DNA of 64,000 bases, taken from Xenophilus sp. E41. Its GTDB lineage: Bacteria > Pseudomonadota > Gammaproteobacteria > Burkholderiales > Burkholderiaceae_C. The stretch spans positions 1 to 64,000 of the forward strand of contig NZ_QPIB01000003.1 of assembly GCF_003671765.1 (NCBI RefSeq), written 5' to 3'. Below are positions 39,103-57,613 of this stretch, piece by piece. Numbering within the stretch: position 1 is the stretch's first letter; each line of letters opens with the position of its first letter. Under the pieces are notes generated by a model. It was given only the letters and a program-made list of their open reading frames with translations. It was not told the origin of the DNA and searched no databases. Made by a program: the position numbers and the translations under genes.

Positions 39103-40302
39103 TCAGTGCGCGGCGGGCACCACCACCGGCACCTCGGTGGCCGGCGGCGTGTTGCGGCTGCGGCCGGCACGCACGATGCCGTCGATCATCACCATGCCGA
39201 CGCCGGGAATGTCGCCTAGCTGCACGCTCTCGAGCAGCGTCTTGCCGGCCGTGTGCTGCGCGCGGTCCATGAAGACGAAGTCCGCGGCGCGGCCGACCTC
39301 GACCAGGCCGCAGTTGAGATTGCGCAGGCGCGCCGTGTTGCCGGTCGCAAAGCAGAACACGACCTCGGCCGGGATGTCGGCCATCGACGAGATCAGCGAC
39401 ACCATGCGCAGGATGCCCAGCGGCTGCACGCCCGAGCCGGCCGGCCCGTCGGTGCCCAGGATCACGCGGTGCGGGCACTTGAGCTCGATGGCCGCGCGCG
39501 CCGCGCCGATGGCCACGCGCTCGTTGCCGTTGTGCACGATCTCGATCCCGCGCGTGCTCTGCTCGCACAGGTCGCACACGTGCTTGAGCGGCAGCGAGGT
39601 GTGGCCGCCGTTGATGTGGCCGATGATGTCGGCGTCGGCCTCCAGCACCGTGTCCTTGTCGATGTAGCCCGAGCCGGGCACCGACGGCCCGCCCGTGTGG
39701 ATGGTGCTCTGGATGCCGTACTTGCGTGCCCAGGCCACCATCTCCTTGGCCTCGTAGCCCGCCTTCACCGTGCCCAGGCCCACTTCGCCGAGCAGGCCCA
39801 CGCCGGCCTCGGCCAGCTCCTTGAAGTCGCTCTCGACCATGCCCTTCTCGATCACCGGCGCGCCGGCCAGCACCTTCACGCCGCCCGGGCGGAAGGCGTC
39901 GAAGGCCCGCTGCGCGGTGATCGCCAGCGCCTTGAGGCCCACGATGTCGCGCGGCCGGCCGGGGTAGTGGACCTCGCCGGCCGAGATCATGGTCGTCACG
40001 CCGCCGTTCATGCTCGACTCGATCCAGTTGAGCTGGCTCTGCCGCGGCGTCCAGTCGCCGGCCACTGGGTGCACGTGGCTGTCGATCAGGCCGGGCGCGA
40101 CGCACACGCCCTTGGCGTCGATGACGGTCCTGGCGCCCTCGGTGTCGCAGTCCTTGAACCTGCCGACGGCCGTGATCAGCCCGTCGTTCACGACGATGGT
40201 GTCGGCGTCGAGGATGGGCCGATCGATGTCGCCCGAGAGCAGCAGCCCTATGTTCTGGATGACGACCTTGCCCGACTTGCCGCCGGTTGCGATTTCTGCC
40301 AT
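39103..40302 (-). CDS. ena: Enamidase (1,4,5,6-tetrahydro-6-oxonicotinate hydrolase) homologue
   Basis: A 399-residue amidohydrolase. From memory it closely follows Eubacterium barkeri enamidase: it opens NIGLLLSGDIDRPILDADTI, has PGLIDSHVHPVAGDWTPRQ with metal ligands H76 and H78, GGVTTMISAGEVHYPGRP, the bridging GEVGLGT, IHTGGPSVPGS, GHINGG, and ends near IPGVGMVMIDG...SRNTPPA. Enamidase hydrolyses tetrahydro-6-oxonicotinate to 2-formylglutarate and ammonia using two metals. It overlaps the upstream TetR gene by 55 nt on the same strand and is divergent from the 6-hydroxynicotinate reductase gene. A less specific amidohydrolase is the alternative. Confidence 0.87.
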   Translation of the reverse strand: MAEIATGGKSGKVVIQNIGLLLSGDIDRPILDADTIVVNDGLITAVGRFKDCDTEGARTVIDAKGVCVAPGLIDSHVHPVAGDWTPRQSQLNWIESSMNGGVTTMISAGEVHYPGRPRDIVGLKALAITAQRAFDAFRPGGVKVLAGAPVIEKGMVESDFKELAEAGVGLLGEVGLGTVKAGYEAKEMVAWARKYGIQSTIHTGGPSVPGSGYIDKDTVLEADADIIGHINGGHTSLPLKHVCDLCEQSTRGIEIVHNGNERVAIGAARAAIELKCPHRVILGTDGPAGSGVQPLGILRMVSLISSMADIPAEVVFCFATGNTARLRNLNCGLVEVGRAADFVFMDRAQHTAGKTLLESVQLGDIPGVGMVMIDGIVRAGRSRNTPPATEVPVVVPAAH

Positions 40303-41009
40303 GGCTTGTTCTCTTCGTGAGGGGGGGTGTCGTTGTCGGCCGCGTCCTCGAGCCGCACGGTGCGCAGCACCGCCTCGATGACGAAGTCCTCCCAGTGCGC
40401 CACCTTGTCCGGCGCGTCCAGGGCTTCGTCCAGGAAGGTCGTGAGGGTGTAGCGGTTGGAGGTATAGAAGTAGCCCGAGGCCGCGATCAAGAGGTACACG
40501 TCTCGCGCCACCAGGTCGGCGCGGAACAGGCCCTGTGCCGCGCCGGCCGCCAGGATGTCCGCGATGATCGCCACCGCGCGCGAGGAGTACTCGCGCGCGC
40601 GCACCGACTTCGCGATGTGCCGGCCCTTGTGCAGGTTCTCGGTGTTGAGCAGCGTGACGAAGTCGGGGTTGCGCCGGTAGTAGCCGTGCACGAAGCGGAT
40701 GACCTCGGTGAGCGCCTCCACCGGCCGCGAGGCGTCGAGCGCGATCGCCGCCTCGGCCTCGTCCATGCGCTGGTAGATGCCCTCGAGCACGGCGACGAAC
40801 AGGCCTTCCTTGCTGCCGAAGTAGTAGTAGATCATCCGGTCATACGACTTGGCCGCCTTGGAGATCTTCTCCACGCTGCCGCCTTCGTATCCGTACTTCG
40901 CGAAGACCTTGGTGGCCGCCTTCAGGATCGCGTCGCGCGTCGCCTGCGCCGCCGCCTCCCGCACGCCGGTCTTGCGCTGGGGCTTGGCGACGGTCTTGCG
41001 GGTGGTCAT
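40248..41009 (-). CDS. TetR family regulator of the nicotinate cluster
   Basis: A 253-residue TetR protein starting MTTRKTVAKPQRKTG (ATG complementary to 41007-41009). The helix-turn-helix is at residues about 22-70 (ATKVFAKYGYEGGSVEKISKAA, then YDRMIYYYFGSKEGL), with a TetR_C-type ligand domain similar to RutR/NicS-style regulators. It overlaps ena by 55 nt, so its last 18 codons are read in a second frame as ena. It is the best local candidate for sensing a pathway compound. Confidence 0.9.
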   Translation of the reverse strand: MTTRKTVAKPQRKTGVREAAAQATRDAILKAATKVFAKYGYEGGSVEKISKAAKSYDRMIYYYFGSKEGLFVAVLEGIYQRMDEAEAAIALDASRPVEALTEVIRFVHGYYRRNPDFVTLLNTENLHKGRHIAKSVRAREYSSRAVAIIADILAAGAAQGLFRADLVARDVYLLIAASGYFYTSNRYTLTTFLDEALDAPDKVAHWEDFVIEAVLRTVRLEDAADNDTPPHEENKPWQKSQPAASRARSSSRT

Positions 41010-41028
41010 GCGGTGTGGGGACGGGAGC

Positions 41029-41098
41029 GGGTACCGAACGCGAATCCTTTTGCGTCCTTCGCGAAACTTTCGCGCCCTTCGCGTACGGCAGTCCGCAT
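41029..41098. repeat. Type A dispersed repeat, right-half copy
   Basis: GGGTACCGAACGCGAATCC is followed by TTGCGTCCTTCGCGAAACTTTCGCG and CTTCGCGTACGGCAGTCCG. It lacks the left CGCGAAGG half seen at 18064 and 50264. It fills the whole gap between fpr and the TetR gene, abutting the fpr stop. Confidence 0.8.
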
Positions 41099-41872
41099 TT
41101 ATTTCTCGGCGAAGGCCCGTTCGACCACGTAGTCGCCGGGCGTGCTGGTGTTGCCTTCCTTGAAGCCGCGGCCTTCGAGGATTTCCTTCATGTCGACCAA
41201 GAGGCCAGGGCTGCCGCAGATCATGACGCGGTCTTCGGCGGGGTTCAGCGGCGGCAGGCCCAGGTCGTCGGTCAGCTTGTTGGCGGTGACCAGGTCGGTG
41301 ATGCGGCCCTGGTTGCGGAATTCCTCGCGCGTCACCGTCGGGTAGTACAGCAGCTGCTTCTCGATCATCTCGCCCAGGAACTCGTGCTTGGGCAGGTGGT
41401 CGACGACCAGGTCGTGGTAGGCCAGCTCGTCGACCTGGCGCACGCCGTGCACCAGGATCACCTGCTCGAACTTCTCGTAGGTCTCGGGGTCGCGGATGAT
41501 GCTCATGAAGGGCGCCAGGCCCGTGCCCGTCCCGAACATGTACAGGCGCTTGCCGGGCAGCGTGTAGTCGATGAGCAGCGTGCCCGTGGGCTTGCGGCCG
41601 ACGATGATGGTGTCGCCGACCTGGATGTGCTGCAGGCGCGAGGTGAGGGGGCCTTCCTCGACCTTGATGCTGAGGAACTCCAGGTGCTCCTCGTAGTTGG
41701 GGCTGACGATGCTGTAGGCGCGCAGCAGCGGCTTGTTGTTGACCTTCAGGCCGATCATCGTGAAGTGGCCGTTGGAGAAGCGCAGCGCCGGGTCGCGCGT
41801 GGTGGTGAAGGTGAACAGGCGGTCCGTCCAGTGGTGGACCGAGAGGACGCGTTCTTCGCTGAAGGCACTCAT
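41099..41872 (-). CDS. fpr: Ferredoxin-NADP reductase
   Basis: A 257-residue bacterial subclass I FNR. FAD-binding RAYSI is near residue 51 and the NADP-binding GTGTGLAPFMS near residue 113; the C terminus is VVERAFAEK as in the bacterial enzymes. It exchanges electrons between NADPH and ferredoxin or flavodoxin. It is the first gene of the fpr-TetR-ena group, divergent from the reductase at 42163, which in E. barkeri takes electrons from ferredoxin. It may also be the ordinary oxidative-stress FNR that happens to lie here. Confidence 0.93.
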   Translation of the reverse strand: MSAFSEERVLSVHHWTDRLFTFTTTRDPALRFSNGHFTMIGLKVNNKPLLRAYSIVSPNYEEHLEFLSIKVEEGPLTSRLQHIQVGDTIIVGRKPTGTLLIDYTLPGKRLYMFGTGTGLAPFMSIIRDPETYEKFEQVILVHGVRQVDELAYHDLVVDHLPKHEFLGEMIEKQLLYYPTVTREEFRNQGRITDLVTANKLTDDLGLPPLNPAEDRVMICGSPGLLVDMKEILEGRGFKEGNTSTPGDYVVERAFAEK

Positions 41873-42094: not shown

Positions 42095-42162
42095 AAAACG
42101 ATGTGGCGGCTCAAGCATCGCGCAGGCACGCTTGTTGCAGGTTGGGTCGCCTCATCTCACGG

Positions 42163-43803
42163 ATGACCACGATGACTGAACACACCAAGACCGACGGCCT
42201 CCCGAGCATGGACCTGCCCGTCGTGCCCGACGCGGCCGGCCTGGGCTACGGCAAGTCGCCGGTGCGCAACGAGCGCATGAGCGCGGCCAAGGTCGAATGC
42301 AACGCCTGCCCGGTGCTCTGCCAGATTTCCGAGGGCCGCACCGGCGCGTGCGACCGCTACGCCAACCGCGCCGGCGTGCTGGTGCGCGTCGACCCGGTGG
42401 TGCTGCTGCGCCGCGAGCTGGCCGCCGAGGCGCCGGCGCTGGTGCCTTTCGCGCGCCCCGGCGCCGAAGGCGAGGAAAAGGCCGCCGACGCCAGCGCGCC
42501 CGCCGACTGGAACGGCGACCTGTTGCATGCCAACGAGGTCTTCGTCACCGGCATCGGCGCCTCCACCACCTACCCCGACTACAAGCCCGCGCCCTTCATC
42601 GTCGGCTCGCAGGCCGAGGGCGTCGACATGGTCACCGTGGTGACCGAAGGCATCTTCAGCTACTGCAGCGTGAAGGTGAAGATCGACACCGACCGCTTCC
42701 TGGGCGCCGAGCAGGCCAACGTCCGCTACAAGGGCGAAGTGGTGGGGCACGTGACCACCGCCGAATACGGCTCGCAGATGCTCTCGCTCGGTGGCGTGCA
42801 CCACCTCACCGGCGGCAGCAAGAAGGAAGGCCGCATGACGCTGGAGCTCATGCAGAACCTGTGCAACAAGCAGGCGGCCGAATGCACCATCGACGGCGGC
42901 GCCAGCCTCGTCATCCAGGCGGGCCGGGCGCCCATCGTCAACGGCATCGAGGAGCAGCGCATGCGCGTGGGCTGCGGCTCGGCCACCGTGGGCATCTTCG
43001 CCAAGCAGCTGCTCGACCTGGCCGACGAGGTGGTGGTGGTCGACGACCACATCACCGGCGTGCTCACCGAGCACCAGGCCGGCCGCTGCCTGTCGATGGC
43101 GCCCTCGGGCATCCAGATGCGCGGGCGCAAGTCCACGCCCGGGCGCTACTTCCAGGTCGCCAACCCGGGCAGCGGCTGGGGCGGCACCGACATCGCCGAC
43201 CCGCTGTCCATCATCGAGGGCTGGGAGCCCGGTGTCGCCAGGCCTGGGCTGCGGCTGCTCATGACCTCCACCACCGGCGAGCAGGCGCAGTGGTACGTGC
43301 TCGACGACCAGCTGCAGCCCGTGGAGCAGCCGATGCCGCCTGCGGTGCAGCGCGTGGTCGACCGCATCGGCGAGAACTGCGAGCCGTCCCTGTGCACCGT
43401 GCTCTTCCTCGGCGGCGCGGGCGGCAGCCTGCGCGCCGGCGTGACCGAGAACCCCATCCTGCTCACGCGCGCGATCAAGCAGGCGCTGGTCAACGTGACC
43501 TGCGGCGGTGCGCCGGCCTACGTGTGGCCCGGCGGCGGCATCACCGTCATGGTCGACGTGATGCGCATGCCCGACAACAGCTTCGGCACCGTGCCCACGC
43601 CGGCCATCATCGCGCCCATCGAGTTCAGCATGCGCCTGGACGACTACGCCGCGCTGGGCGGCCACGTCGACCACGTCATGCCGCTCGACAAGGCGCTGGC
43701 GCGCGGCGCCTGGCAGGACGACGGCGCCCCCACGGCGCGCGAATGGCGCCGGGCCGACGGCGTCAATCCCTGGCCGCTGGGCCACGGCCCCATGCTGGGC
43801 TGA
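42163..43803 (+). CDS. hnr: 6-Hydroxynicotinate reductase homologue
   Basis: A 546-residue iron-sulfur flavoprotein-type enzyme. The N-terminal cluster motif is C46-x2-C49-x3-C53-x9-C63 (VECNACPVLCQISEGRTGAC), with further cysteines in FSYCSVKV, MQNLCNKQAAEC, VGCGSA and CEPSLC. In Eubacterium barkeri the enzyme reduces 6-hydroxynicotinate to 1,4,5,6-tetrahydro-6-oxonicotinate and carries Fe-S clusters and a covalently bound flavin. The next step, enamidase, is encoded divergently. A second ATG three codons in (42172) is an alternative start. The assignment rests on remembered family features plus neighbours. Confidence 0.82.
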   Translation: MTTMTEHTKTDGLPSMDLPVVPDAAGLGYGKSPVRNERMSAAKVECNACPVLCQISEGRTGACDRYANRAGVLVRVDPVVLLRRELAAEAPALVPFARPGAEGEEKAADASAPADWNGDLLHANEVFVTGIGASTTYPDYKPAPFIVGSQAEGVDMVTVVTEGIFSYCSVKVKIDTDRFLGAEQANVRYKGEVVGHVTTAEYGSQMLSLGGVHHLTGGSKKEGRMTLELMQNLCNKQAAECTIDGGASLVIQAGRAPIVNGIEEQRMRVGCGSATVGIFAKQLLDLADEVVVVDDHITGVLTEHQAGRCLSMAPSGIQMRGRKSTPGRYFQVANPGSGWGGTDIADPLSIIEGWEPGVARPGLRLLMTSTTGEQAQWYVLDDQLQPVEQPMPPAVQRVVDRIGENCEPSLCTVLFLGGAGGSLRAGVTENPILLTRAIKQALVNVTCGGAPAYVWPGGGITVMVDVMRMPDNSFGTVPTPAIIAPIEFSMRLDDYAALGGHVDHVMPLDKALARGAWQDDGAPTAREWRRADGVNPWPLGHGPMLG

Positions 43804-43814
43804 GGGGCGAGCGG

Positions 43815-44714
43815 ATGAGCGCAACGCGGCAGCCCATCGACGGCGGGCGCTGGCATTTCCAGCACGGCCCGATGGACCTGATCCTGCGCGCCGAGGGAGA
43901 GGGCCTGGCCGTCGCCGCGGCGCACGAGGCCGCCTGGCAGCGCTTCGTGCCGCTGCTGGACGAACTCGTGGCGGAGCTGCCCGCGCTGCGCCAACCGGTC
44001 ACCGCCCTCGCGCGTCCGGCCGGCGTCGTCGCGCGGCGCATGTGGGACGCGAGCGCCGCCTTCGCGCCACGCTTCATCACGCCCATGGCCGCCGTTGCGG
44101 GTGCTGTCGCCCAGGAGCTCGCGGCCTGCTACCAGCGCCCCGGCATCCGGCGGGCCTGGGTCAACAACGGCGGCGACATCGCCTGCCACCTGGCGCCGGG
44201 CACCTCGGCGCGCGTGGGGCTCTATTCGGACCTGTCCCGCTTCGACCCGGCCGACGCCGGTGCCCTGCGCACCGATGGCCAGTTCGATGTCCATGCCGAG
44301 CAGCCCGTGCGCGGCGTGGCCACCAGCGGCTGGCGCGGACGCAGCTTCTCGCTGGGCATCGCCGACAGCGTGACCGTGCTTGCCGCGACCGCGGCGGGCG
44401 CCGACGCCGCGGCCACCGTGATCGCGAACGCCGTGGACGTGGCGCACCCCGGCATCCATCGCCTGCCGGCCAGCCAATGCAAGGACGGCAGCGATCTGGG
44501 CGACACGCCGGTCACCGTCGATGTGCCCGCACTGCCCCCGCAGGCCGTCGCGCGTGCACTCGATGCGGGCGAGCGCTGCGCACGTGCGGTGCAGGGCGCC
44601 GGCCACGCCTGGGCCGCGATACTCGTTTGCCAGGGGCAATGGCGACTTGTTCAACCTTTAAGCTCGGCCCCCGGCGACGCCACGCAGCCCGCACTTGGTT
44701 CAGTATTTGCTTAA
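43815..44714 (+). CDS. UPF0280 family, ApbE-like protein
   Basis: A 299-residue protein of the UPF0280 family, which shares the fold of ApbE flavin transferases. Two ApbE-like motifs are visible: RRAWVNNGGDIACHL near residues 114-128 (compare VNxGGDI in ApbE) and DSVTVLAATAAGADAAATVI near residue 186 (compare the metal/FAD-binding SVTV...ADALAT end of ApbE). It begins 11 nt after hnr. Because the E. barkeri reductase carries a covalent flavin, this protein is a candidate for attaching it. No signal peptide, so cytoplasmic. Confidence 0.75.
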   Translation: MSATRQPIDGGRWHFQHGPMDLILRAEGEGLAVAAAHEAAWQRFVPLLDELVAELPALRQPVTALARPAGVVARRMWDASAAFAPRFITPMAAVAGAVAQELAACYQRPGIRRAWVNNGGDIACHLAPGTSARVGLYSDLSRFDPADAGALRTDGQFDVHAEQPVRGVATSGWRGRSFSLGIADSVTVLAATAAGADAAATVIANAVDVAHPGIHRLPASQCKDGSDLGDTPVTVDVPALPPQAVARALDAGERCARAVQGAGHAWAAILVCQGQWRLVQPLSSAPGDATQPALGSVFA

Positions 44715-44736
44715 CGAAAAGCAAGGCATCCTTCCC

Positions 44737-45381
44737 ATGATCGACATCCGACGCGTCTTCACCCAGGTCGAGACCATCCACCACGAGTTCGGCCCGCGCG
44801 CCGCAACGCCGCTGGTGCGTGGTGCGATCGCCGCGGTGCTGACCAATCCCTTCGCGGGCCGCTACGAGCCCGACATCCTGCCGATGATGGACCTGCTCGA
44901 ACCCGTGGGCGTCGACATGGCGCACCGGCTGCACGCCGCCATGGACGTGCCGCTCGAGCAGCTCGCCACCTACGGCAAGGGCGCCATCGTCGGCGCCGCC
45001 GGCGAGATCGAGCACGGCGCCCTGTGGCACGTGCCCGGCGGCTACGCCATGCGCGAACTGCTCGGCTGGAAGGGCGACCGCGCCGCCTACAAGGCCGGCA
45101 CCGTCGCCGAGAAGAAGACCGGCCAGCCCGGCAACGCGCTGTCGATCGTGCCATCGACCAAGAAGGTCGGCCCACCCGGTGCCGCGCTCGACGTGCCGCT
45201 GACCAACATCAACGCGAGCTATGTTCGCGGGCAGTTCGACGCCATCGAAGTGCGCGTGCCGGGCGCGCCCGAATCGGACGAGATCGTCTTCATCCTCGCC
45301 ATGAGCACCGGCTATCGCGTGCACGACCGCGTCGGCGGCCTGCGCGCGGAGAACATCGCTCAGTGGGACGGGCTGCGGTGA
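44737..45381 (+). CDS. PF06684 (amino-acid synthesis family) protein 1
   Basis: A 214-residue cytoplasmic protein of PF06684 (formerly DUF1185), best started at ATG 44737 (MIDIRRVFTQVET); a TTG start at 44695 would overlap the previous gene. Conserved parts include AVLTNPFAGRY near residues 45-55, YGKGAIVGAAGEIEHGA near residues 84-100, and VPLTNINASYVRGQFDAIEVRV. A family structure is reported to resemble a chorismate-mutase-type trimer; no enzyme activity is established. It lies 22 nt after the ApbE-like gene and is paralogous to the gene at 45468. Confidence 0.8.
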   Translation: MIDIRRVFTQVETIHHEFGPRAATPLVRGAIAAVLTNPFAGRYEPDILPMMDLLEPVGVDMAHRLHAAMDVPLEQLATYGKGAIVGAAGEIEHGALWHVPGGYAMRELLGWKGDRAAYKAGTVAEKKTGQPGNALSIVPSTKKVGPPGAALDVPLTNINASYVRGQFDAIEVRVPGAPESDEIVFILAMSTGYRVHDRVGGLRAENIAQWDGLR

Positions 45382-45397
45382 ATCGGCAGGTCGTCGA

Positions 45398-45457: not shown

Positions 45458-45467
45458 TGAAGGATCA

Positions 45468-46055
45468 ATGATGTCAGTCGATATTCGCAAGCTGGTGGTG
45501 CAGGTGGACGAAACGCGCAAGGAGATGGGAAAGACCATCGACCCGCCGACGCGCCGCGCCGTCGCCATCGCCGTCATCGCCAACCCCTATGCGGGCCGCT
45601 ACAGCGAGAACCTCGACGAGCTGATCGCCATCGGCGAGGAGCTCGGCGCGCTGCTGGGCCAGAAGGCCGTGAAGGCGCTGGGCATCGAGCCCGGCCAGGC
45701 CCAGAGCTACGGCAAGGCCGCGATCGTGGGCGAAGGCGGCGAGCTGGAGCACGCGGCCGCCATCCTGCATCCCAAGCTGGGCGCGCCGCTGCGCGTGGCC
45801 GTCGAGAAGGGCGCCGCGCTGGTGCCCTCGGCCAAGAAGCGCGGCACGCTGGGCACCGCCATCGACGTGCCGCTGGGCCACAAGGACGCCGCCTTCGTGC
45901 GCAGCCACTTCGACGCCGTCGAGGCCCGCGTGAGCGATGCCCCGCGCGCCGGCGAGATCGTTGTCGCCGTCGCCGTGACCGACAGCGGCCGGCCCCTGCC
46001 GCGCATCGGCGGGCTGCAGGTGTCCGAGATCAAGGGCGAGGACGGTCTTCGCTGA
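45468..46055 (+). CDS. PF06684 (amino-acid synthesis family) protein 2
   Basis: A 195-residue paralogue of the protein at 44737, sharing VIANPYAGRYSENLDEL near residues 37-53, SYGKAAIVGEGGELEHAA near residues 79-96, IDVPLGHKDAAFVRSHFDAVEARV and the C-terminal IGGLQ...DGLR. The ATG pair at 45468 and 45471 gives one residue of ambiguity. Two adjacent copies suggest a hetero-oligomer or two related steps, for instance handling of the ring-opened product. Function unknown. Confidence 0.8.
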   Translation: MMSVDIRKLVVQVDETRKEMGKTIDPPTRRAVAIAVIANPYAGRYSENLDELIAIGEELGALLGQKAVKALGIEPGQAQSYGKAAIVGEGGELEHAAAILHPKLGAPLRVAVEKGAALVPSAKKRGTLGTAIDVPLGHKDAAFVRSHFDAVEARVSDAPRAGEIVVAVAVTDSGRPLPRIGGLQVSEIKGEDGLR

Positions 46056-46116: not shown

Positions 46117-47331
46117 ATGAAAGCTCTGCGTCACGTGTTCACCGCCGCTTCGGTGGCCACCCTTGCTGCCACCGCGCTCGTGCCGGCCCATGCGCAAGGC
46201 GTGATCAAGATCGGCGAGATCAACAGCTACAAGGCGCAGCCCGCCTTCCTCGAGCCCTACAAGAAGGGCATGGAACTGGCCGTGGACGAGATCAACGCCG
46301 GCGGCGGCGTGAACGGCAGGAAGATCGAGCTCATCACGCGCGACGACAATGCCAACCCCGGCGACGCGGTGCGCATGGCCGAGGAGCTGGTCTCGCGCGA
46401 GAAGGTCGACATCCTCGCCGGTGCCTTCCTCTCCAACACCGGCCTGGCGCTGGCCGACTTCGCCAAGCAGAAGAAGTTCTTCTACCTGGCCGGCGAGCCG
46501 CTCACCGACAAGATGACCTGGCAGGGCGGCAACCAGTACACCTTCCGCCTGCGCCCCGGCACCTACATGCAGGCCGCCATGCTCGTGCCCGACGCGGCCA
46601 AGCTCAAGAAGAAGCGCTGGGCCATCGTGTACCCCAACTACGAGTACGGCCAGTCGGCGGTGGCAGCCTTCAAGCAACTGCTCAAGGCCGCGCAGCCGGA
46701 TGTCGAGTTCGTCACCGAACAGGCCACGCCGCTGGGCAAGGTCGATGCCGGCAGCGTGGTGCAGGCCCTGGCCGACGCCAAGCCCGACGCGATCTTCAAC
46801 GTGCTCTTCGGCGCCGACCTCTCGAAGTTCGTGCGCGAAGGCAACACGCGCGGCCTCTTCAAGGACCGTGAAGTGGTGAGCGTGCTCACCGGCGAGCCCG
46901 AATACCTCGACCCGCTGAAGGACGAGGCCCCCAACGGCTGGCTGGTCACGGGCTACCCGTGGTATGGCATCACCACGCCCGAGCACAAGAAGTTCGAGCA
47001 GGCCTACCAGGCCAAGTTCAAGGACTACCCGCGCCTGGGTTCGGTGGTGGGCTACAGCATGATCAAGTCGGCCGCGGCCGGCGTGGCCAAGGCCGGCAGC
47101 ACCGAATCCGACAAGCTCGTCGCGGCCTTCAAGGGCCTGCAGGTCGACACGCCCTTCGGCAAGATCAGCTACCGCCCCGAAGACCACCAGTCGACCATGG
47201 GCGCCTTCGTCGGCCGCACCAAGAACGAGGGCGGCAAGGGCGTGATGGTGAACTACACCTACTTCGACGGTGCCGACGCGCGATTCCAGCCCGCCGCCGC
47301 CGACGTCAAGAAATCGCGCGCAGCGGATTGA
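46117..47331 (+). CDS. Branched-chain-amino-acid-type ABC substrate-binding protein 1
   Basis: A 404-residue periplasmic binding protein of the LivK/Peripla_BP_6 type with a signal peptide ending PAHAQ. The body begins VIKIGEINSYKAQPAFLEPYKKGMELAVDEINAGG. Its ribosome site is ccaggagt. The permease and ATPases follow, split from it by a type B repeat. Given the surrounding enzymes the ligand may be nicotinate, 6-hydroxynicotinate or a related pyridine acid, which is inference. Confidence 0.88.
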   Translation: MKALRHVFTAASVATLAATALVPAHAQGVIKIGEINSYKAQPAFLEPYKKGMELAVDEINAGGGVNGRKIELITRDDNANPGDAVRMAEELVSREKVDILAGAFLSNTGLALADFAKQKKFFYLAGEPLTDKMTWQGGNQYTFRLRPGTYMQAAMLVPDAAKLKKKRWAIVYPNYEYGQSAVAAFKQLLKAAQPDVEFVTEQATPLGKVDAGSVVQALADAKPDAIFNVLFGADLSKFVREGNTRGLFKDREVVSVLTGEPEYLDPLKDEAPNGWLVTGYPWYGITTPEHKKFEQAYQAKFKDYPRLGSVVGYSMIKSAAAGVAKAGSTESDKLVAAFKGLQVDTPFGKISYRPEDHQSTMGAFVGRTKNEGGKGVMVNYTYFDGADARFQPAAADVKKSRAAD

Positions 47332-50402: not shown

Positions 50403-51131
50403 ATGAACGACGTCCTCCTCGAAGCCAAATCCCTGTGCGCCTGGTACGGCGCCGCGCAGATCCTCTACGACGTCGACCTGGAGGTGCGGCGCGGCGAGGT
50501 GGTGGCGCTCATGGGCCGCAACGGCGCCGGCAAGTCGACCACGCTCAAGGCGCTGATGGGCATGCTGGCCAAGCGGCGCGGCGCGATCCGCTTCCTGGGC
50601 AACGACATCTCGAAGACCGAGCCGCACCATGCGGCGCGCCTGGGCCTGGGCTTCGTGCCCGAGGACCGGCGCGTGTTCACCGACCTCACCGTCATGGAGA
50701 ACCTCGAGGTGGGCCGCCAGGCCGGCCGCCAATGGGCCGACGGCGGCGCCGCGCCGCTGTGGACGCCCGAGAAGCTGTTCAAGCTCTTCCCCAACCTCGG
50801 CGAGATGCCCCACCGCCCGGGCGGCCGCATGAGCGGTGGCGAGCAGCAGATGCTCACCGTGGCCCGAACGCTGATGGGCAACCCGTACCTGGTGCTGCTC
50901 GACGAACCCTCCGAGGGCGTGGCGCCCGTCATCGTCGAGCAGATGGCGAACATGATCCTGGAACTGAAGGCGCAAGGTGTGTCGATCCTGCTGTCGGAGC
51001 AGAACATGCACTTCGCCGAACTGGTCTCCGACCGCGCCTACGTGCTCGAGAAGGGCCAGATCCGATATGCCGCCAGCATGGCCGAGCTGGCAGCCAACGA
51101 GGACGTGCGACGCGCCTACCTGAGCGTGTAG
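50403..51131 (+). CDS. LivF-type ABC ATP-binding protein
   Basis: A 242-residue ATPase: Walker A GRNGAGKSTTLKALMG near residue 37, signature MSGGEQQMLTVARTL near residue 142, Walker B VLLDEPSEGVAP and H-loop LLSEQNMHFAEL. It completes the importer encoded from 46117. A type B repeat follows the stop. Confidence 0.95.
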   Translation: MNDVLLEAKSLCAWYGAAQILYDVDLEVRRGEVVALMGRNGAGKSTTLKALMGMLAKRRGAIRFLGNDISKTEPHHAARLGLGFVPEDRRVFTDLTVMENLEVGRQAGRQWADGGAAPLWTPEKLFKLFPNLGEMPHRPGGRMSGGEQQMLTVARTLMGNPYLVLLDEPSEGVAPVIVEQMANMILELKAQGVSILLSEQNMHFAELVSDRAYVLEKGQIRYAASMAELAANEDVRRAYLSV

Positions 51132-51336: not shown

Positions 51337-52062
51337 ATGACGAACGGATTTCCTCGCCGCAGCTTTCTTCAGGCCGCCGCCGCATTCGGCGCGGCCGGCC
51401 TCGCGCCCACCCTGTGGGCGGCCGGCAAGATCAAGCCCGGCCCCAAGGCCGCGCTCATCGTGGTCGATGTCCAGAACTGCTTCGTCGATGGCGGCACGCT
51501 GCCGGTCAAGGGCGGGGCGGAGGTGGTGCCCCTCATCAACAAGCTGGCCGAGAGCTTCGACAACGTGGTCGTGACGCAGGACTGGCACACGCCCGGGCAT
51601 GCCTCCTTCGCCAGCGCGCATGCGGGCCAGAAGCCCTTCTCCAGCATCAAGCTGGGCTACGGCAACCAGGTGCTGTGGCCCGACCACTGCGTGCAGGGCA
51701 CCGACGACGCGGCGCTGCACAAGGACCTGAAGCTGCCCACCGCGCAGCTCATCATCCGCAAGGGCTTCAACAAGGGCGTGGACAGTTACTCCGCCTTCGA
51801 GGAGGCCGACCGCAAGACCGTCACCGGCCTGGCCGGCTACCTCAAGGCGCGCGGCATCAAGACCGTGTACGTCACCGGGCTGGCCACCGACTTCTGCGTC
51901 GCCTGGACCGCGCTCGATGCACGCAAGGCCGGTTTCGAGGCCTACGTGATCGAGGACGCCACGCGTGCCATCGACCTCAACGGCTCGCTGGCCAAGGCCT
52001 GGAAGGACATGCAGGCCAAGGGCGTCAAGCGCATCCAGTCCAGCGACATCGCCACCGCCTGA
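51337..52062 (+). CDS. Tat-exported nicotinamidase-type isochorismatase
   Basis: A 241-residue cysteine hydrolase. The N terminus is a twin-arginine signal (PRRSFLQAAAAFGAAGLAP). The catalytic triad is visible as D44 in VVDVQNCFVDGG, a lysine in IRKGFNKGVDSYSAF, and the cysteine in GLATDFCVAWTALDA. Metal ligands fit in QDWHTPGHASF. These match PncA-type nicotinamidases, which give nicotinate and ammonia. Export to the periplasm is unusual for this family and fits a feeding role ahead of the nicotinate dehydrogenase. Confidence 0.85.
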   Translation: MTNGFPRRSFLQAAAAFGAAGLAPTLWAAGKIKPGPKAALIVVDVQNCFVDGGTLPVKGGAEVVPLINKLAESFDNVVVTQDWHTPGHASFASAHAGQKPFSSIKLGYGNQVLWPDHCVQGTDDAALHKDLKLPTAQLIIRKGFNKGVDSYSAFEEADRKTVTGLAGYLKARGIKTVYVTGLATDFCVAWTALDARKAGFEAYVIEDATRAIDLNGSLAKAWKDMQAKGVKRIQSSDIATA

Positions 52063-52078
52063 AAGAAGCCGACATTCC

Positions 52079-53239
52079 ATGACCCATTTCTCCAGGCGGC
52101 GCACGCTCGCCGCGGGCGCCGCCGCGCTCGCCTTCGGCCCGGCGCTGCTGCGCCGCGCCCGCGCCGAGAACGGTGTCGCCGACGGCGTCGTCCGGCTCGG
52201 GCAATCGGCCGTGTTCAGCGGCCCCGCGCAGGACTTCGGCATCGACTACCGCGCCGGCATCCAGCTGTATTTCGACCGGCTCAACAAGGCGGGCGGCGTG
52301 CATGGCCGGCGTGTCGAACTGGTCTCGTACGACGACGTCTACGAGCCCGCGAAGACGGCGGCCAACACCACGCGCCTCATCGAGCAGGACAAGGTCTTCG
52401 CGCTCACGGGCTATGTCGCCACCGGCAACCTGGTGGCGGCGATGCCGCTGTGCGAGAAGGCCGGCGTGCCCATGTTCGCGCCGCTGGTGGGCACCACGTC
52501 CTTCCGCACCAGCGTCAACCGGCTGCTGTTCCACGTGCGGGCGGGCTACGACCTGGAACTGCGCAAGATCATCAGCCACCTCTCGACCATCGGCATCCAG
52601 TCGATCGCCGTGGTGTTCCAGGACAGCGCCTTCGGCAAGTCCAACCTCGCGACCTGCGAGCAGCTCGCGGCCGACTACAAGGTCAAGGTGGTGCAGAAGC
52701 TGCCGATGGCCATTGCCGCGGCCGATGCCAAGGACGTGGTGGCGGGCCTCAAGGCGGCATCGCCCGGGGCGGTGGTGATGATCATGGCCGGCCGCATGGT
52801 CGACGTCTTCATCCGCGACTACCGCGCGAGCGGCTCCGGCGCCCAGCTCTACACGCTGTCGGTGGGCATCACCGACGCCAAGGGTTCGGCCCAGCGGCTC
52901 GAAGGCAAGCTCGCCGGCCTGGTCACGGCCAGCATCGTGCCGCCGCCGCAGGCGCTGCGCGTCCCGATCGTGGCCGACTACCAGCGCGACCGCGCGGCCT
53001 TCGGCCAGAAGATCGACAGCTACACGGCGCTCGAAGGCTACATCGTCGGCCGCGTGATGGCCGAGGGCCTGCGGCGCGGCGGCCCGGCGCTCACCCGCGA
53101 CAGCTTCATCGCCGGGCTGGAGAGCATCGGGCGCACCAGCTTCGGCGAGTTCCCGGTCGAATACAGCGCGCGCAACCACAACGGCTCGACCTTCGTCGAC
53201 CTGGAGATGTACACCGGCGATGGGCAGCTGCGACGCTAG
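52079..53239 (+). CDS. Branched-chain-amino-acid-type ABC substrate-binding protein 2
   Basis: A 386-residue Peripla_BP_6 protein with a twin-arginine-like signal (SRRRTLAAGAAALAFGPALLRRARA). The body starts VVRLGQSAVFSGPAQDFGIDYRAG. It lies 16 nt after the nicotinamidase and overlaps nicA by 20 nt, so it belongs to the same operon. It may share the importer at 47502-51131 or act as a sensor. No permease is encoded beside it. Confidence 0.87.
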   Translation: MTHFSRRRTLAAGAAALAFGPALLRRARAENGVADGVVRLGQSAVFSGPAQDFGIDYRAGIQLYFDRLNKAGGVHGRRVELVSYDDVYEPAKTAANTTRLIEQDKVFALTGYVATGNLVAAMPLCEKAGVPMFAPLVGTTSFRTSVNRLLFHVRAGYDLELRKIISHLSTIGIQSIAVVFQDSAFGKSNLATCEQLAADYKVKVVQKLPMAIAAADAKDVVAGLKAASPGAVVMIMAGRMVDVFIRDYRASGSGAQLYTLSVGITDAKGSAQRLEGKLAGLVTASIVPPPQALRVPIVADYQRDRAAFGQKIDSYTALEGYIVGRVMAEGLRRGGPALTRDSFIAGLESIGRTSFGEFPVEYSARNHNGSTFVDLEMYTGDGQLRR

Positions 53240-53750
53240 CCGGGTGCAGGCGCCGCCGCTGGCGTCCGCCGACAAGCTCGGGCCCCTGCTGGCGCTCGAG
53301 GTGAACGGCCGTGCGGTGTCGATACCCGCGCCTCGCGAAGCCACGCTGCTGCACGTGCTGCGCAACGACCTGGGCCTCAACGGCCCCAAGTACGGCTGCG
53401 GCCTGGGCCAGTGCGGCGCCTGCACGGTGCACGTGGACGGCGTCGCCGCCCGGGCCTGCGTGATTCCGGCGCACGGCGTCGCCGGCCGCCGCATCACCAC
53501 GCTCGAAGGGCTGGGATCGCGCCACGATTTCCATCCCGTGCAACAGGCCTTCGAACGGGCCCAGGCGGCGCAGTGCGGCTATTGCCTGAACGGCATGGTG
53601 ATGCAGGCCGCAGCGCTGCTGGCCCGTGAAGCGCGGGCTACACCGGCGCGCATCCGCGCCGAGCTGTCGGGCAACCTGTGCCGTTGCGGCACCCACATCG
53701 AGATCCTGCGCGCCGTGGAAGACGCCGCCGCGCGCCTCGCGTCGGCATGA
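53220..53750 (+). CDS. nicA: Nicotinate dehydrogenase small (2Fe-2S) subunit
   Basis: A 176-residue xanthine-dehydrogenase-family small subunit. The plant-type [2Fe-2S] cysteines are C60, C65, C68 and C80 (YGCGLGQCGACTVHV); the second cluster uses QCGYCLNGM and NLCRCGTH. Electrons pass from the molybdenum centre of NicB through these clusters to the haems. Start ATG 53220 lies inside the upstream gene; the stop overlaps nicB by ATGA. An isoquinoline or aldehyde dehydrogenase subunit is the alternative; the neighbours favour nicotinate. Confidence 0.85.
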   Translation: MGSCDASRVQAPPLASADKLGPLLALEVNGRAVSIPAPREATLLHVLRNDLGLNGPKYGCGLGQCGACTVHVDGVAARACVIPAHGVAGRRITTLEGLGSRHDFHPVQQAFERAQAAQCGYCLNGMVMQAAALLAREARATPARIRAELSGNLCRCGTHIEILRAVEDAAARLASA

Positions 53751-56700
53751 GTCCACCCCTGCGTGCCAGCCAGCCGCGCAGCCGGGCCGACTTCCTGGCC
53801 GCCGAGGGCGTGCTGGTCGTCGTGCGGCCCACCCCGCCCGCACCGCCGCCCGTCAAGGGCCAGCCGGCCGCGGTGCCGGGCAACCCGCTCGAGGGCGACG
53901 AGGTGCTGCTCGCGCTGTGGGACGACGGCAGCATCACGGCCTTGAACGGCCACGTCGACCTGGGCACCGGCATCGGCACCGCGCTGGCGCAGATCGTGGC
54001 CGAGGAGCTCGACGCGCCGCTCGATGCCGTCTGCATGGTGCTGGGCGACACGGCACGAGCGCCCAACCAGGGCGCGACCATCGCCAGCGCCTCGATCCAG
54101 ATCCACGCGCAGCCGCTGCGGCTGGCGGCCGCGCAGGCGCGCGCCTGGCTGCTCGCGCGCGCGGCCGAGCGCCTGGGCGTCGCGGCGGCCGCGCTGCGCA
54201 TCGAGGGCGGCATCGTCCACCATGGCGAGGCGCGGCTGCCGACGAGCGCGCTGGTGGCCGGCCAGCGCACGGTGCTGACGCTCGACACCGCGGCGCAGGT
54301 CAAGCGCGCCGAGGACTACCGCCTCGTCGGCACGCCGCAGCCGCGCGTCGACATCCCGGCCAAGCTGGCCGGCGAGCTGGTGTTCGTGCACGACATGCGC
54401 CTGCCCGGCATGCTGCACGGGCGCGTGGTGCGGCCGCCCTACGCGGGCGCCGACCATGGCGACTTCGTCGGCAACACGCTCGAGTCGGTGGACGAGTCGT
54501 CCATCGCGCACGTGCCCGGCATCCGCGCGGTGGTCGTGATCCGCGACTTCGTCGGCATCGTCGCCGAGCGCGAGGAGCATGCCGAACAGGCCATGCGCGA
54601 ACTGCGCGTGCGCTGGAAGTCCTGGCCCGGCATGCCCGACCTGGACCACCCCGACAAGGTGGCGCAGGCCATCCGCGACAACCCCGCCACGCAGCGGCTG
54701 CTGGTGGACGAGGGCAACGTCGATGCGGCCCTGGCCGGTGCGGGCGACGCGATGCGCCGCACCTACCTGTGGCCGTACCAGCTGCATGCCTCCATCGGCC
54801 CCTCCTGCGCCGTCGCGCAGTGGCTGGAGGAGCCAACTGCGCCGAGCCCCCGATCCGCAGGATCGGCCGCCCCGGCTGTGCCGGGGCCAGGGGCGAGCGC
54901 CCCCTCGGGGGGCAGCGGACCGCGCGAAGCGGGGGAGCGTGGGGGCGCGCGCTTGCGCGTTTGGGCGGGATCTCAGAACCCGCATGTCCTGCGGGCCGAC
55001 CTCGCGAAGCTCATGGGCGTGCAGGACATCGACGTCGACGTCGTGCGCATGGAGGCCGCCGGCTGCTACGGCCGCAACGGTGCCGACGACGTGGCGGCCG
55101 ATGCGGCGCTGCTGGCCCGTGCCGTGGGCGCGCCCGTGCGCGTGCAGCTCACGCGCGAGCAGGAGCACGCCTGGGAGCCCAAGGGCACGGCGCAGCTCAT
55201 GACGGTGGCGGGCGCCCTGTCGCCCGAGGGTGGCATCGGCGCCTACGACTTCGAGACCTCCTACCCCAGCAACGGCGCGCCCACGCTGGCGCTGCTGCTC
55301 ACCGGCACCGTCGATGCGCAGCCGCATGCCTACGAGATGGGCGACCGCACCGCGCGCCCGCCCTACGCCTACGCGCACCTGCGGGTGAAGGTCAACGACA
55401 TGGCGCCGATCGTGCGCGCCTCCTGGCTGCGCGGCGTCTCGGCCTTGCCCAACTCCTTCGCGCACGAGTCCTTCATCGACGAACTGGCCACCGCCGCGGG
55501 CGTGGACCCGGTGCAGTTCCGCCTGCGGCACCTCGACGACCCGCGCGCCATCGAGCTCGTGCAAGCCACCGCGCAGAAGGCGGGCTGGCGCATGCGCACC
55601 GGGCCGCAGGAGAACGCCGATGGCGGGTTGGGGTCGGGCGGCGACATCCTTTTCGGACAGGGATTCGCGTATGCGCGCTACATCCACAGCAAGTGGCCCG
55701 GCTTCGGCGCCGCCTGGGCTGCGTGGGTGGCCGACGTGGAGGTCAATCGCAGGACGGGCGAGGTGCACGTGCGCCGCGTGGTGGTGGGCCACGATGCCGG
55801 CCTGACCATCAACCCGGCGGGCGTCGAGCACCAGGTGCACGGCAACGTGCTGCAGACCACCAGCCGAGCCCTGAAGGAGCAGGTGCAGTTCGCGCCCGCG
55901 TCGCCCGCGGGCGCCGCTGCGAAGGAGCAACTGCCCGGCGTGCTGCCGCAGGGCGTGGTCGCGAATCGCGAATGGGGCAGCTACCCGATTCTCAGCTTCC
56001 GCGAGGTGCCGGTCGTCGAGGTGCTGCAGATGCCACGCCCCGGCGAACCGCCGCTGGGCGCCGGCGAGTCCGCCTCGGTGCCTGGCACGGCCGCGATCGC
56101 CAATGCGATCTTCGACGCGACGGGCGTGCGCTTTCGCGCGCCGCCGTTCACACCGGAGGTGGTGCGCGCCGCGCTGAATCCGCTGCCACCCACAGGCGGC
56201 GACGCGACGCGCGACGAGGCGCCGCATCCGCAGCCGGTGCCGGCGCGCGTTCTGCCGGCCGGTGTGCCCTTGCCGCGCCGCAAGGGCCTGTGGGCCACGG
56301 GCGCCGCGCTGGTCCTCGGCGGCCTCGGCGCCATCGCCGGCCTGCTCGGCTGGCGGCCGGCCATCGCGCCCGTCTCGTTCAGTGCACCGGCCTACAGCGC
56401 CGAGACGATCGAGCGCGGCCGCCAGCTCGCCGCGCTGGGCGATTGCGCCGTGTGCCACACCGCGCCCGGCGGCACGCCCAATGCCGGCGGCCGGGCGATG
56501 GAAACGCCCTTCGGCACCCTGTACACCACCAACCTCACGCCCGACCCCGAGACGGGCCTGGGCCGCTGGTCCTTCACGGCCTTCCAGCGTGCGATGCGCG
56601 AAGGCATCTCGCGCGACGGCCGGCACCTCTACCCGGCCTTCCCGTACACCGCCTTCGCCAAGACCAGCGACGACGACCTGCAGGCGCTGTACGCCTACCT

Positions 56701-57613
56701 GCAGTCGCTGCCCGCGGTGAAGGCGGGGGCGAGAGAGGACGGCTCGCCCGCCATCCTGCCGGCCAACGACCTGCGCTTCCCCTTCAACCTGCGGCCCCTG
56801 ATGGCGGGCTGGAACGCCTTGTTCCACGACGCGGCGCCGTATGCGCCCGTTGCAACGCAGAGCGCCGAGTGGAATCGGGGCGCCTACCTCGTCAACGGCC
56901 TGGGCCACTGCGGCGCCTGCCACACGCCGCGCAACGCGCTGGGCGCGGAACAGGTGGGCAGCGCCTTCCTGGCCGGCGCCACCATCGACGGCTGGGAAGC
57001 GCCCGCGCTCACGTCGCTGTCGAAGTCGCCCGTGGCCTGGGATGCGGATGCGCTGTACGCCTATCTGCGCCACGGCCACTCGCCGCGGCACGGCGTCGCG
57101 GGCGGGCCGATGGCGGAGGTGGTGCGCGAACTGCAGCAGGTGTCCGATGCCGACATCCGCGCCATGGCCACCTACCTCGCGTCCTTCAACCCCGCGCCGG
57201 CGCCCGATCCGCAGCAGCAGGCGCAGGCCGTGGTGCAGGCCGCCGCGGCGCGGCAGGACCAACTGCTCGGCGCGCCGCAGCGCATGTTCGAGATGGCCTG
57301 CGCCGCCTGCCACCACGATGGCGATGGCCCGACGCTGCTGGGCGTGAACACGCCGCTGGCCCTCAACAGCCAGTTGGTGAGCGACCGGCCCGACAACCTC
57401 ATCCGCACCATCCTCGACGGCGTGCGCGAACCGGCAGCGAAGGACCTCGGCTTCATGCCCGCCTTCCGCGAGGCGCTGAGCGACGCGCAGATCGCCGAAC
57501 TGGCCGGCTACATGCGCGCGCGCTTCGCGCCGCAGGCCTCGCCCTGGACCGATCTGCCGGCGCAGGTCGCCCGCCTGCGTGCGGCGCCGGGGCACGGCGC
57601 ACCCGCACGCTGA
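53747..57613 (+). CDS. nicB: Nicotinate dehydrogenase large subunit with three c-type haem motifs
   Basis: A 1288-residue protein. Residues about 1-830 form the molybdopterin-binding part (DLGTGIGTALAQIVAEEL near residue 68; GPSCAVAQW; AAGCYGRNGADDVAADA; a final PGTAAIANAIFDATG). A membrane segment near residues 846-875 is followed by cytochrome c domains with CAVCH at 900, CGACH at 1055 and CAACH at 1185. This is the layout of Pseudomonas putida NicB, which hydroxylates nicotinate to 6-hydroxynicotinate and feeds electrons to the respiratory chain. A type B-like repeat is inserted in frame at residues about 364-401. Confidence 0.87.
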   Translation: MSPPLRASQPRSRADFLAAEGVLVVVRPTPPAPPPVKGQPAAVPGNPLEGDEVLLALWDDGSITALNGHVDLGTGIGTALAQIVAEELDAPLDAVCMVLGDTARAPNQGATIASASIQIHAQPLRLAAAQARAWLLARAAERLGVAAAALRIEGGIVHHGEARLPTSALVAGQRTVLTLDTAAQVKRAEDYRLVGTPQPRVDIPAKLAGELVFVHDMRLPGMLHGRVVRPPYAGADHGDFVGNTLESVDESSIAHVPGIRAVVVIRDFVGIVAEREEHAEQAMRELRVRWKSWPGMPDLDHPDKVAQAIRDNPATQRLLVDEGNVDAALAGAGDAMRRTYLWPYQLHASIGPSCAVAQWLEEPTAPSPRSAGSAAPAVPGPGASAPSGGSGPREAGERGGARLRVWAGSQNPHVLRADLAKLMGVQDIDVDVVRMEAAGCYGRNGADDVAADAALLARAVGAPVRVQLTREQEHAWEPKGTAQLMTVAGALSPEGGIGAYDFETSYPSNGAPTLALLLTGTVDAQPHAYEMGDRTARPPYAYAHLRVKVNDMAPIVRASWLRGVSALPNSFAHESFIDELATAAGVDPVQFRLRHLDDPRAIELVQATAQKAGWRMRTGPQENADGGLGSGGDILFGQGFAYARYIHSKWPGFGAAWAAWVADVEVNRRTGEVHVRRVVVGHDAGLTINPAGVEHQVHGNVLQTTSRALKEQVQFAPASPAGAAAKEQLPGVLPQGVVANREWGSYPILSFREVPVVEVLQMPRPGEPPLGAGESASVPGTAAIANAIFDATGVRFRAPPFTPEVVRAALNPLPPTGGDATRDEAPHPQPVPARVLPAGVPLPRRKGLWATGAALVLGGLGAIAGLLGWRPAIAPVSFSAPAYSAETIERGRQLAALGDCAVCHTAPGGTPNAGGRAMETPFGTLYTTNLTPDPETGLGRWSFTAFQRAMREGISRDGRHLYPAFPYTAFAKTSDDDLQALYAYLQSLPAVKAGAREDGSPAILPANDLRFPFNLRPLMAGWNALFHDAAPYAPVATQSAEWNRGAYLVNGLGHCGACHTPRNALGAEQVGSAFLAGATIDGWEAPALTSLSKSPVAWDADALYAYLRHGHSPRHGVAGGPMAEVVRELQQVSDADIRAMATYLASFNPAPAPDPQQQAQAVVQAAAARQDQLLGAPQRMFEMACAACHHDGDGPTLLGVNTPLALNSQLVSDRPDNLIRTILDGVREPAAKDLGFMPAFREALSDAQIAELAGYMRARFAPQASPWTDLPAQVARLRAAPGHGAPAR
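54836..54948 (-). repeat. GC-rich repeat inserted in frame in nicB
   Basis: CGATCCGCAGGATCG, CCCCGGCTGTGCCGGGG and CGCCCCCTCGGGGGGC hairpins in a row, followed by CGCGCGAAGCGGGGGAGCG. On the minus strand this reads like an intergenic repeat related to the type B elements. It encodes a Pro/Ser/Gly-rich stretch between AVAQWLEE and LRVWAGSQNPH. Confidence 0.65.

Follow-up and report, generated by a model that had tools for sequence, protein, structure and literature searches.

The systems closest to the one considered here are the nicotinate clusters of rhizobia, the fermentation cluster of Eubacterium barkeri and the nic pathway of Pseudomonas putida. A nicotinate cluster is named for Azorhizobium caulinodans, Bradyrhizobium japonicum, Rhodopseudomonas palustris and Bradyrhizobiaceae SG-6C in the legend to Fig. 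4 of Shettigar 2012 (PMC3511419), and according to passages of the same paper 6-hydroxynicotinate is degraded by growing as well as by resting cells of SG-6C; citing Kitts 1989/1992, the paper also reports a route through tetrahydro-6-oxonicotinate in aerobic A. caulinodans, with Alhapel 2006 cited for E. barkeri. Here we analyse a fifteen-gene block at positions 39103-57613 of a 64,000-nucleotide stretch of DNA from Xenophilus sp. E41 (contig NZ_QPIB01000003.1), the whole of which we call the window, with a G+C content of 70% and a host genome of 5.84 Mb. Judged by the enzyme families that it encodes, the block very probably holds a complete upper pathway for the catabolism of nicotinamide and nicotinate by the aerobic reductive route. 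A cluster of this kind is already known from rhizobia, and the Comamonadaceae member is new. Kitts is said to have described in 1992 that nicotinate serves as a respiratory electron donor by way of a membrane-bound hydroxylase and a cytochrome of the c type, and nine Proteobacteria were reportedly found by Alhapel in 2006 to have the first three genes. The reductive route for nicotinate was first described in an anaerobe; our surveys support the view that it is common in Burkholderiales and other Pseudomonadota and has an interchangeable first enzyme.

A BrkB-family gene and a gene that matches FAH weakly flank the block, and the region to its left is ordinary, with hut and methionine synthase genes. 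The minus strand encodes enamidase (Ena), a TetR regulator and a ferredoxin-NADP reductase-like protein; the plus strand encodes 6-hydroxynicotinate reductase (Hnr), a UPF0280 protein, two PF06684 proteins (AAs1 and AAs2), the genes of an ABC importer, a nicotinamidase, a second binding protein, and the NicA and NicB subunits of a nicotinate dehydrogenase. The first-pass annotation had placed nicotinamidase, NicAB, Hnr and Ena together in one block; homology and domain searches found every one of them where it had put them, and added the TetR regulator, the ferredoxin-NADP reductase-like protein, UPF0280, both PF06684 proteins, the HAAT-type importer and the second binding protein. The genes are as follows, the molybdenum cofactor being abbreviated MoCo and twin-arginine translocation Tat.

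39103-40302, minus strand: Ena, enamidase, assigned together with its reaction by homology to PDB entry 2vun
40248-41009, minus strand: TetR-family regulator (Pfam TetR_N 8e-13, TetR_C_29 4e-38)
41099-41872, minus strand: ferredoxin--NADP(+) reductase-like protein (NCBIfam PRK10926 2.4e-40, 138 bits, below the cut-off of 390)
42163-43803, plus strand: Hnr, 6-hydroxynicotinate reductase, assigned from homologues and their names; a GTG start at 42103 is possible
43812-44714, plus strand: UPF0280/COG2122 protein with a predicted ApbE-like fold (NCBIfam NF003322 378.5 bits, cut-off 290)
44737-45381, plus strand: AAs1, PF06684 protein 1 (Pfam AA_synth 2.1e-62)
45471-46055, plus strand: AAs2, PF06684 protein 2 (PDB 2qtp, E=9.5e-85)
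46117-47331, plus strand: periplasmic substrate-binding protein of a HAAT-type ABC importer (Peripla_BP_6 3e-73)
47502-49469, plus strand: ABC importer, fused double permease (BPD_transp_2 in two stretches, 7.2e-72)
49466-50257, plus strand: ABC importer ATPase 1 (Walker-type sequence in the reading frame)
50403-51131, plus strand: ABC importer ATPase 2 (ABC_tran 6.9e-30)
51337-52062, plus strand: nicotinamidase with a Tat-type signal (NCBIfam PRK11609 177.2 bits, cut-off 174; PDB 2wt9, E=3.4e-86)
52079-53239, plus strand: second periplasmic binding protein with a twin-arginine start (Peripla_BP_6 4.3e-54)
53220-53750, plus strand: NicA, two-[2Fe-2S] subunit of nicotinate dehydrogenase (Fer2, Fer2_2; CX4CX2C and CX2C...CXC motifs)
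53747-57613, plus strand: NicB, a MoCo domain in permuted order, a membrane segment and a triheme cytochrome c, assigned from domains and motifs

Like the Azorhizobium/Bradyrhizobium-type cluster, the block belongs to an aerobic host, would proceed through tetrahydro-6-oxonicotinate, and groups a hydroxylase with Hnr, Ena, an ABC importer and conserved uncharacterised genes. It differs in its host, a member of the Comamonadaceae, and in having a nicotinamidase and both PF06684 paralogues in the operon; four loci of the group f48/g110 (L112, L125, L126 and L129), which we take to be Bradyrhizobium, have AAs2 only and gave no nicotinamidase match within the fetched stretches. The E. barkeri fermentation cluster shares homologues of enamidase and Hnr with the block, and NicB matches 3hrd_B, a nicotinate dehydrogenase medium subunit (2e-22) that is presumably from E. 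barkeri. In contrast to E. barkeri with its four-subunit selenium enzyme, the hydroxylase here has two subunits and a cytochrome c, and no 2-formylglutarate reductase or methyleneglutarate mutase-type gene is present among the fifteen genes. The P. putida nic pathway (NicAB, NicC, NicX, NicD, NicE, NicF), compared without a named P. putida sequence, has the NicAB upper module in common with the block, whereas the ring would be reduced here and is oxidised there. A NicX query gave no match in the Xenophilus genome (the same query matches loci L165-L170 at 43-100%) and a NicC query gave only distant relatives, the best four at 30-35%; as far as these two queries reach, the claim that nicC/nicX ring-cleavage genes are missing therefore holds. 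The names NicC-like and NicX-like in relatives come from Pfam make-up and not from a named reference.

In the pathway that we propose, the nicotinamidase, which bears a Tat-type signal, would convert nicotinamide to nicotinate, probably outside the cytoplasm, and the ABC importer would then take up the nicotinate. NicAB, with its MoCo and Fe-S parts in the cytoplasm and the triheme cytochrome c across the membrane, would convert nicotinate to 6-hydroxynicotinate and deliver the electrons to respiration, and Hnr, drawing on NADPH via the ferredoxin-NADP reductase-like protein and a ferredoxin, would then reduce the ring to 1,4,5,6-tetrahydro-6-oxonicotinate. Hydrolytic opening by Ena would yield 2-formylglutarate and ammonium, and 2-formylglutarate may, as in Azorhizobium, be decarboxylated on its way to glutarate. 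UPF0280 would mature Hnr, and AAs2 would act at or just after ring opening. A phmmer search of the PDB with Ena returned the enamidase 2vun at E=3.9e-109 over residues 11-390, far ahead of the next entry at 1.1e-6, which places its best match in the characterised clade. Identity to this solved E. barkeri enzyme is 46.6% over 380 aligned residues, and H67, H69, E164, H193, H220 and D276 of the 2vun chain, which we take to be the ligands of the binuclear metal site, are all identical in Ena. Homology thus predicts that Ena hydrolyses tetrahydro-6-oxonicotinate to 2-formylglutarate and NH3. The match to 2vun, the lack of a NicX match and the published homologous cluster, as the figure legend describes it (PMC3511419), support the first-pass reading of the block as an aerobic reductive pathway of the Azorhizobium kind.

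Conservation was followed in an even draw of 398 Pseudomonadota genomes and in 80 named-record loci around Hnr, fetched as stretches of limited length, with identity cut-offs of at least 60% for Ena and at least 55% for nicotinamidase and, in the loci, for NicA. Hnr occurs in 32 of the 398 genomes, nine of these 32 belonging to one genus (g110); Fisher p-values ignore such relatedness, and the counts are therefore given without them. Ena was found in 18 genomes, all of which also carry Hnr, and full-length NicB, Hnr and Ena stand together in 14 of the 398, nine of them again g110. Among the 80 loci, UPF0280 follows Hnr in all, Ena is present in 74 and NicA in 66, while 70 loci contain all four genes for Ena, the TetR regulator, the ferredoxin-NADP reductase-like protein and Hnr, in the same order each time (70/70). 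This recurrence of UPF0280, Ena and NicA and the kept gene order indicate an association beyond chance. The window's Hnr is 98% identical to that of a Pseudomonadota metagenome-assembled genome (L001) and 97% identical to that of Xenophilus aerolatus (L002). In 10 of the 14 loci without NicA the fetched stretch stops 1.4-10 kb past Hnr; the other four (L073, L075, L076 and L080, from Burkholderiales metagenome-assembled genomes) have weaker hydroxylase matches only, with NicA at 41-43% in three and a NicB fragment in all four. Two genomes without Hnr (G238, contig 15; G289, contig 84) also have an enamidase relative, at 40-41% identity.

The description of NicAB as a two-subunit, haem-bearing enzyme was confirmed by the [2Fe-2S] domains of NicA and, in NicB, by the Pfam domains MoCoBD_1, MoCoBD_2, Cytochrom_C and Cytochrome_CBB3 and three CXXCH motifs (900/1055/1185), with a single hydrophobic segment at 850. 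The best PDB matches of NicB are to an aldehyde dehydrogenase, 8gy3_A (cytochrome subunit, 3.3e-95) and 8gy3_C (large subunit, over the MoCo part, 1.3e-38), 3hrd_B being the next. An RRKG sequence before the hydrophobic segment suggests that the MoCo part lies inside and the haems outside. That NicAB replaces the first enzyme of the anaerobic route holds for the window and needs refinement beyond it, as 16 of the 32 Hnr genomes have another hydroxylase beside Hnr. Assembled by hand over these 32 genomes, the linkage counts are 15 genomes, from 7 genera, with NicAB in the Hnr neighbourhood, 16 with a different MoCo hydroxylase beside Hnr, with and without enamidase, and one (G167) with neither near Hnr. 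In the loci with the alternative hydroxylase the NicB query matched in fragments only, covering about 14-21% of its length next to Hnr at 28-36% identity, and no cytochrome part was matched by it; the Fe-S part was 39-46% identical to NicA in all 11 of the longer stretches fetched from those 16 genomes. In Sagittula (L133) the alternative enzyme is annotated as a MoCo protein of 908 residues, with an FAD-binding protein next to it, and in L117 and L118 it is a fused Fe-S/MoCo frame of about 1000 residues. The four Burkholderiales loci L073, L075, L076 and L080 have this alternative type as well. On present gene content, the first enzyme of the route appears to be interchangeable and NicAB not obligatory.

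NicAB is likewise found outside the reductive context. Full-length NicB, defined by our own cut of at least 820 bits that leaves weaker relatives uncounted, is present in 22 of the 398 genomes, 17 of which have Hnr. Two of these 17 have it unlinked to Hnr: G274, where NicAB stands beside NicC/NicX-like genes (L170), and G167, where a full-length NicB on contig 136 (L171) lies away from Hnr and near genes that by eye resemble urate oxidase and a purine permease. In each of the five NicB genomes that lack Hnr (G038, G107, G307, G392 and G280), NicC- and NicX-like genes lie close to NicB, in keeping with NicAB as a source of 6-hydroxynicotinate for either route. The NicB proteins beside NicC/NicX-like genes in L165-L170 are 47-62% identical to that of the window, depending on the stretch, and are interleaved with the others in the tree, which marks the window's NicB as an orthologue of the NicB of such clusters. 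Below the cut, a relative in G383 (674 bits) stands beside a NicX-like gene (51%, L157) and one in G249 (515 bits) beside a NicC-like gene (67%, L163). The NicB tree, built from 32 of the 84 NicB rows, some of them flagged for long branches and unusual composition, places at least three changes between Hnr-linkage and NicC/NicX-linkage on well-supported branches, possibly one gain and two losses. The NicAB module appears from this tree to have switched between reductive and oxidative lower pathways more than once.

Hnr itself has no Pfam or NCBIfam match at default thresholds and no PDB match up to E=10. Its homologues in 26 plasmid records are 56-85% identical, and 17 of the 26 are named 6-hydroxynicotinate reductase. 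According to a passage of Shettigar 2012, the homologue in the SG-6C cluster is 42% identical to E. barkeri Hnr (PMC3511419). Matches of at least 430 aligned residues gave 137 rows including the window, of which 115 remained after removal of 22 identical rows, near-copies from the same genomes still being among them. The cysteine motif C46-x2-C49-x3-C53-x9-C63 is kept in at least 97% of the 115 rows, and a motif HxLTGGSK is near-invariant, HxLTGGS falling at 213-219 and Ser219 being present in 114. The cofactors expected for Hnr are Fe-S and a covalent flavin, the latter reportedly described for the E. barkeri enzyme by Alhapel in 2006. An AlphaFold model made with 40 close homologues had a mean predicted local distance difference test score (pLDDT) of 53 and no Foldseek match at E <= 0.001, and was left unused. 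Weak matches below cut-off were obtained to Pfam GCV_T_C with Hnr relatives (E 0.0045-0.11) and to the radical-SAM-family model TIGR04337 with the N-terminal cysteine motif (E 0.0011-0.066), and an hhalign comparison of Hnr with Escherichia coli Ftp found nothing. In G016 (contig 1, 2969817-2971264; L121) the Hnr match falls into two separate pieces, beside UPF0280 and PF06684 genes, and being too short it was left out of the alignment.

The closest companion of Hnr is UPF0280, presumably the same family as COG2122. The 32 of 398 genomes that have it are exactly those with Hnr; the two genes share a contig there and lie no more than about 0.5 kb apart, and in the 80 loci UPF0280 is the next match downstream at a gap of -3 to 661 bases. 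Two roles in the maturation of Hnr have to be weighed. One is that of a sulfur or Fe-S maturation factor, as has been proposed for COG2122 in methanogens and in Desulfovibrio homocysteine synthesis, and this we consider quite possible, if short of probable. According to a passage of PMC5764234, Desulfovibrio depends on both COG2122 and DUF39 to make homocysteine. The conserved CxxCxxxC...C site of Hnr speaks for such a role, whereas a search of the 32 Hnr genomes for DUF39 (PF01837) returned no match, against 3 positives among 14 control genomes, and this absence makes Hnr the likelier partner of UPF0280 in them. A kinship of Hnr with DUF39, which would explain a common COG2122 partner, was also considered, and Hnr gave no PF01837 match at E <= 10.

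Also against a sulfur or Fe-S role is the resemblance of the UPF0280 model to ApbE-type flavin transferases, and with it the covalent flavin reported for E. barkeri Hnr. The AlphaFold model (pLDDT 87.7) matched 2o34, the COG2122 protein DVU1097, at 4.4e-9 in Foldseek and ApbE-type flavin transferases from 2.1e-4, with probabilities of about 1, TM-scores of 0.3-0.5 and, for ApbE-type matches at E <= 0.001, identities of about 9-17%. At the level of sequence the likeness is fainter: the Pfam ApbE model scored E 0.003 and 17.6 bits, under its cut-off of 25.6, and a sequence-profile search of the PDB reached 2o34 and no ApbE. ApbE has a conserved Ser-His-Asp triad and acts on partners with the motif DxxSGA[ST], as described in a part of PMC12052999. 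In an hhalign comparison with E. coli Ftp, in which residues were placed by motif at a probability of only 9.9%, the triad Ser and Asp align with UPF0280 residues, while the catalytic His and the HxxDPxTG loop are not kept, and the missing His favours the sulfur or Fe-S alternative. Hnr in turn lacks the strict substrate motif, with Asp replaced by His in 108 of the 115 rows and Ala by Gly, the T-G-G-S sequence resembling it. No signal peptide was seen in UPF0280 by eye. The ApbE-like model and the reported covalent flavin are what lead us to the idea of flavin attachment. That UPF0280 attaches the Hnr flavin, at whatever site, is a tentative proposal, and Ser219 as that site is somewhat less likely; the fuller version, in which UPF0280 is a dedicated cytoplasmic enzyme of the ApbE fold that would attach the flavin, perhaps at Ser219, without the histidine of ApbE, we regard as doubtful.

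PF06684 proteins occur in 31 of the 32 Hnr genomes (the exception being G139) and in none of the five NicC/NicX-only genomes. The clade of AAs2, taken as at least 60% identity to the window protein, is found in all 18 genomes with Ena and, among the 14 Hnr genomes that lack Ena, in one (G386); half of the 18 belong to one genus, and the independent events are therefore fewer than the count. In G123 and G194 the enamidase lies on another contig than Hnr, and the AAs1/AAs2 pair is directly beside the enamidase. From these counts and this pairing we conclude that AAs2 travels with enamidase. Hnr loci without enamidase retain a PF06684 copy nearer to AAs1, and some Hnr genomes have additional, more distant copies elsewhere. 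AAs2 is a close homologue of 2qtp, which we take to be SPO0826. For the structures of SPO0826 and BB2672 (PF06684/DUF1185), a role in amino-acid metabolism was derived partly from adjoining ABC genes of the branched-chain amino acid type, according to a passage of PMC2954203. Here this type of transporter sits in an N-heterocycle cluster, and the AAs2 clade, publicly labelled 'amino acid synthesis protein', may have been misnamed on the strength of gene context. Our guess, offered as one that is more apt to fail than to hold, is that AAs2 could be the enzyme after ring opening, a 2-formylglutarate decarboxylase or a related step. A limited literature search found, in the sources it reached, no published link between UPF0280 and Hnr or between PF06684 and enamidase. 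Two orphan families thereby gain a partner, UPF0280 in Hnr and the AAs2 clade in enamidase, and both gene-function links are now testable.

Several observations weigh against a nicotinate pathway by the reductive route. Neither the decarboxylation of 2-formylglutarate nor the oxidation of glutarate semialdehyde could be assigned to a gene, the lower (glutarate) pathway not having been searched, and Hnr requires low-potential electrons in an aerobe, where their feed would depend on the proposed carriers. Ena is absent from 14 of the 32 Hnr genomes, some Hnr loci having hydantoinase-like genes instead, and Hnr alone is therefore no proof of nicotinate as the substrate. The NicB relative of L171, finally, stands outside any nicotinate cluster beside its purine catabolism-like genes, and NicB-like enzymes may have other substrates too. 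These points leave some room for the cluster degrading a different N-heterocycle, such as another pyridine carboxylate or a related lactam, with the nicotinamidase a bystander; the range of Hnr may indeed be broad, as it also occurs without Ena and NicAB beside hydantoinase-like genes and other MoCo hydroxylases. We nevertheless hold this to be improbable in view of the close identity of Ena to the solved enamidase (47%), the nicotinamidase within the fetched stretch of 57 of the 80 loci, and the NicAB homologues beside NicC/NicX-like genes in other genomes. That NicAB and Hnr/Ena are independent neighbours, NicAB serving export or another enzyme and Hnr/Ena another substrate, would suit the exchange of NicAB among contexts in the tree and G274, whose Hnr lies away from NicAB with another hydroxylase, but is highly improbable given the 15 Hnr genomes of 7 genera with NicAB in the Hnr neighbourhood and the fact that NicAB comes after the ABC genes in most Burkholderiales loci of sufficient length. 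The catabolism of nicotinamide and nicotinate thus remains the preferred reading of the block. At the Ena-less loci, hydantoinase A/B-like genes (annotated in L132, L133 and L134, by eye in L116) suggest an ATP-dependent alternative ring opening or another heterocycle. All four loci have Hnr-UPF0280-PF06684 and no enamidase in the fetched stretch; the first three are from Neorhizobium NCHU2750, Sagittula and Pleomorphomonas respectively, and the labels there are hyuA/hyuB, hydantoinase or acetophenone carboxylase subunits.

The remaining genes of the block concern entry of the substrate, electron supply and regulation. The Tat-type signal of the nicotinamidase (RRSFLQ) was recognised by eye, and an RRx(hydrophobic) motif is present near the N-terminus in 45 of the 57 homologous loci; the enzyme is, to judge from this signal, probably periplasmic. 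At 51337-53239 the nicotinamidase and the second binding protein both start with twin-arginine signals, pointing to an extracytoplasmic deamidation of nicotinamide. The second binding protein (at least 50% identity) is found in 30 of the 80 loci and is not conserved throughout, and CP099606 has two ABC ATP-binding genes at the place equivalent to that of the importer ATPases of the window. A homologue of the ferredoxin-NADP reductase-like protein (at least 60%) is present in 74 of the 80 loci, and the protein is a probable source of electrons for Hnr. In L114 a gene at 18863-19252 that by eye resembles a 7Fe-ferredoxin stands beside the enamidase, followed by a match to the reductase-like protein cut by the end of the stretch, and its product is a possible electron carrier to Hnr. 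The TetR gene stands between those for enamidase and the reductase-like protein in all 70 loci holding the four genes, and its product is probably a local repressor. A role in the lower pathway was weighed for the FAH-family gene at 57737-58933 and set aside, its Pfam score being weak and below cut-off and the gene not standing beside NicB in the plasmid locus L131. Further on, a long open frame of at least 1127 residues (60618-63998), with degenerate repeats rich in G, N, A, V and I, runs off the window.

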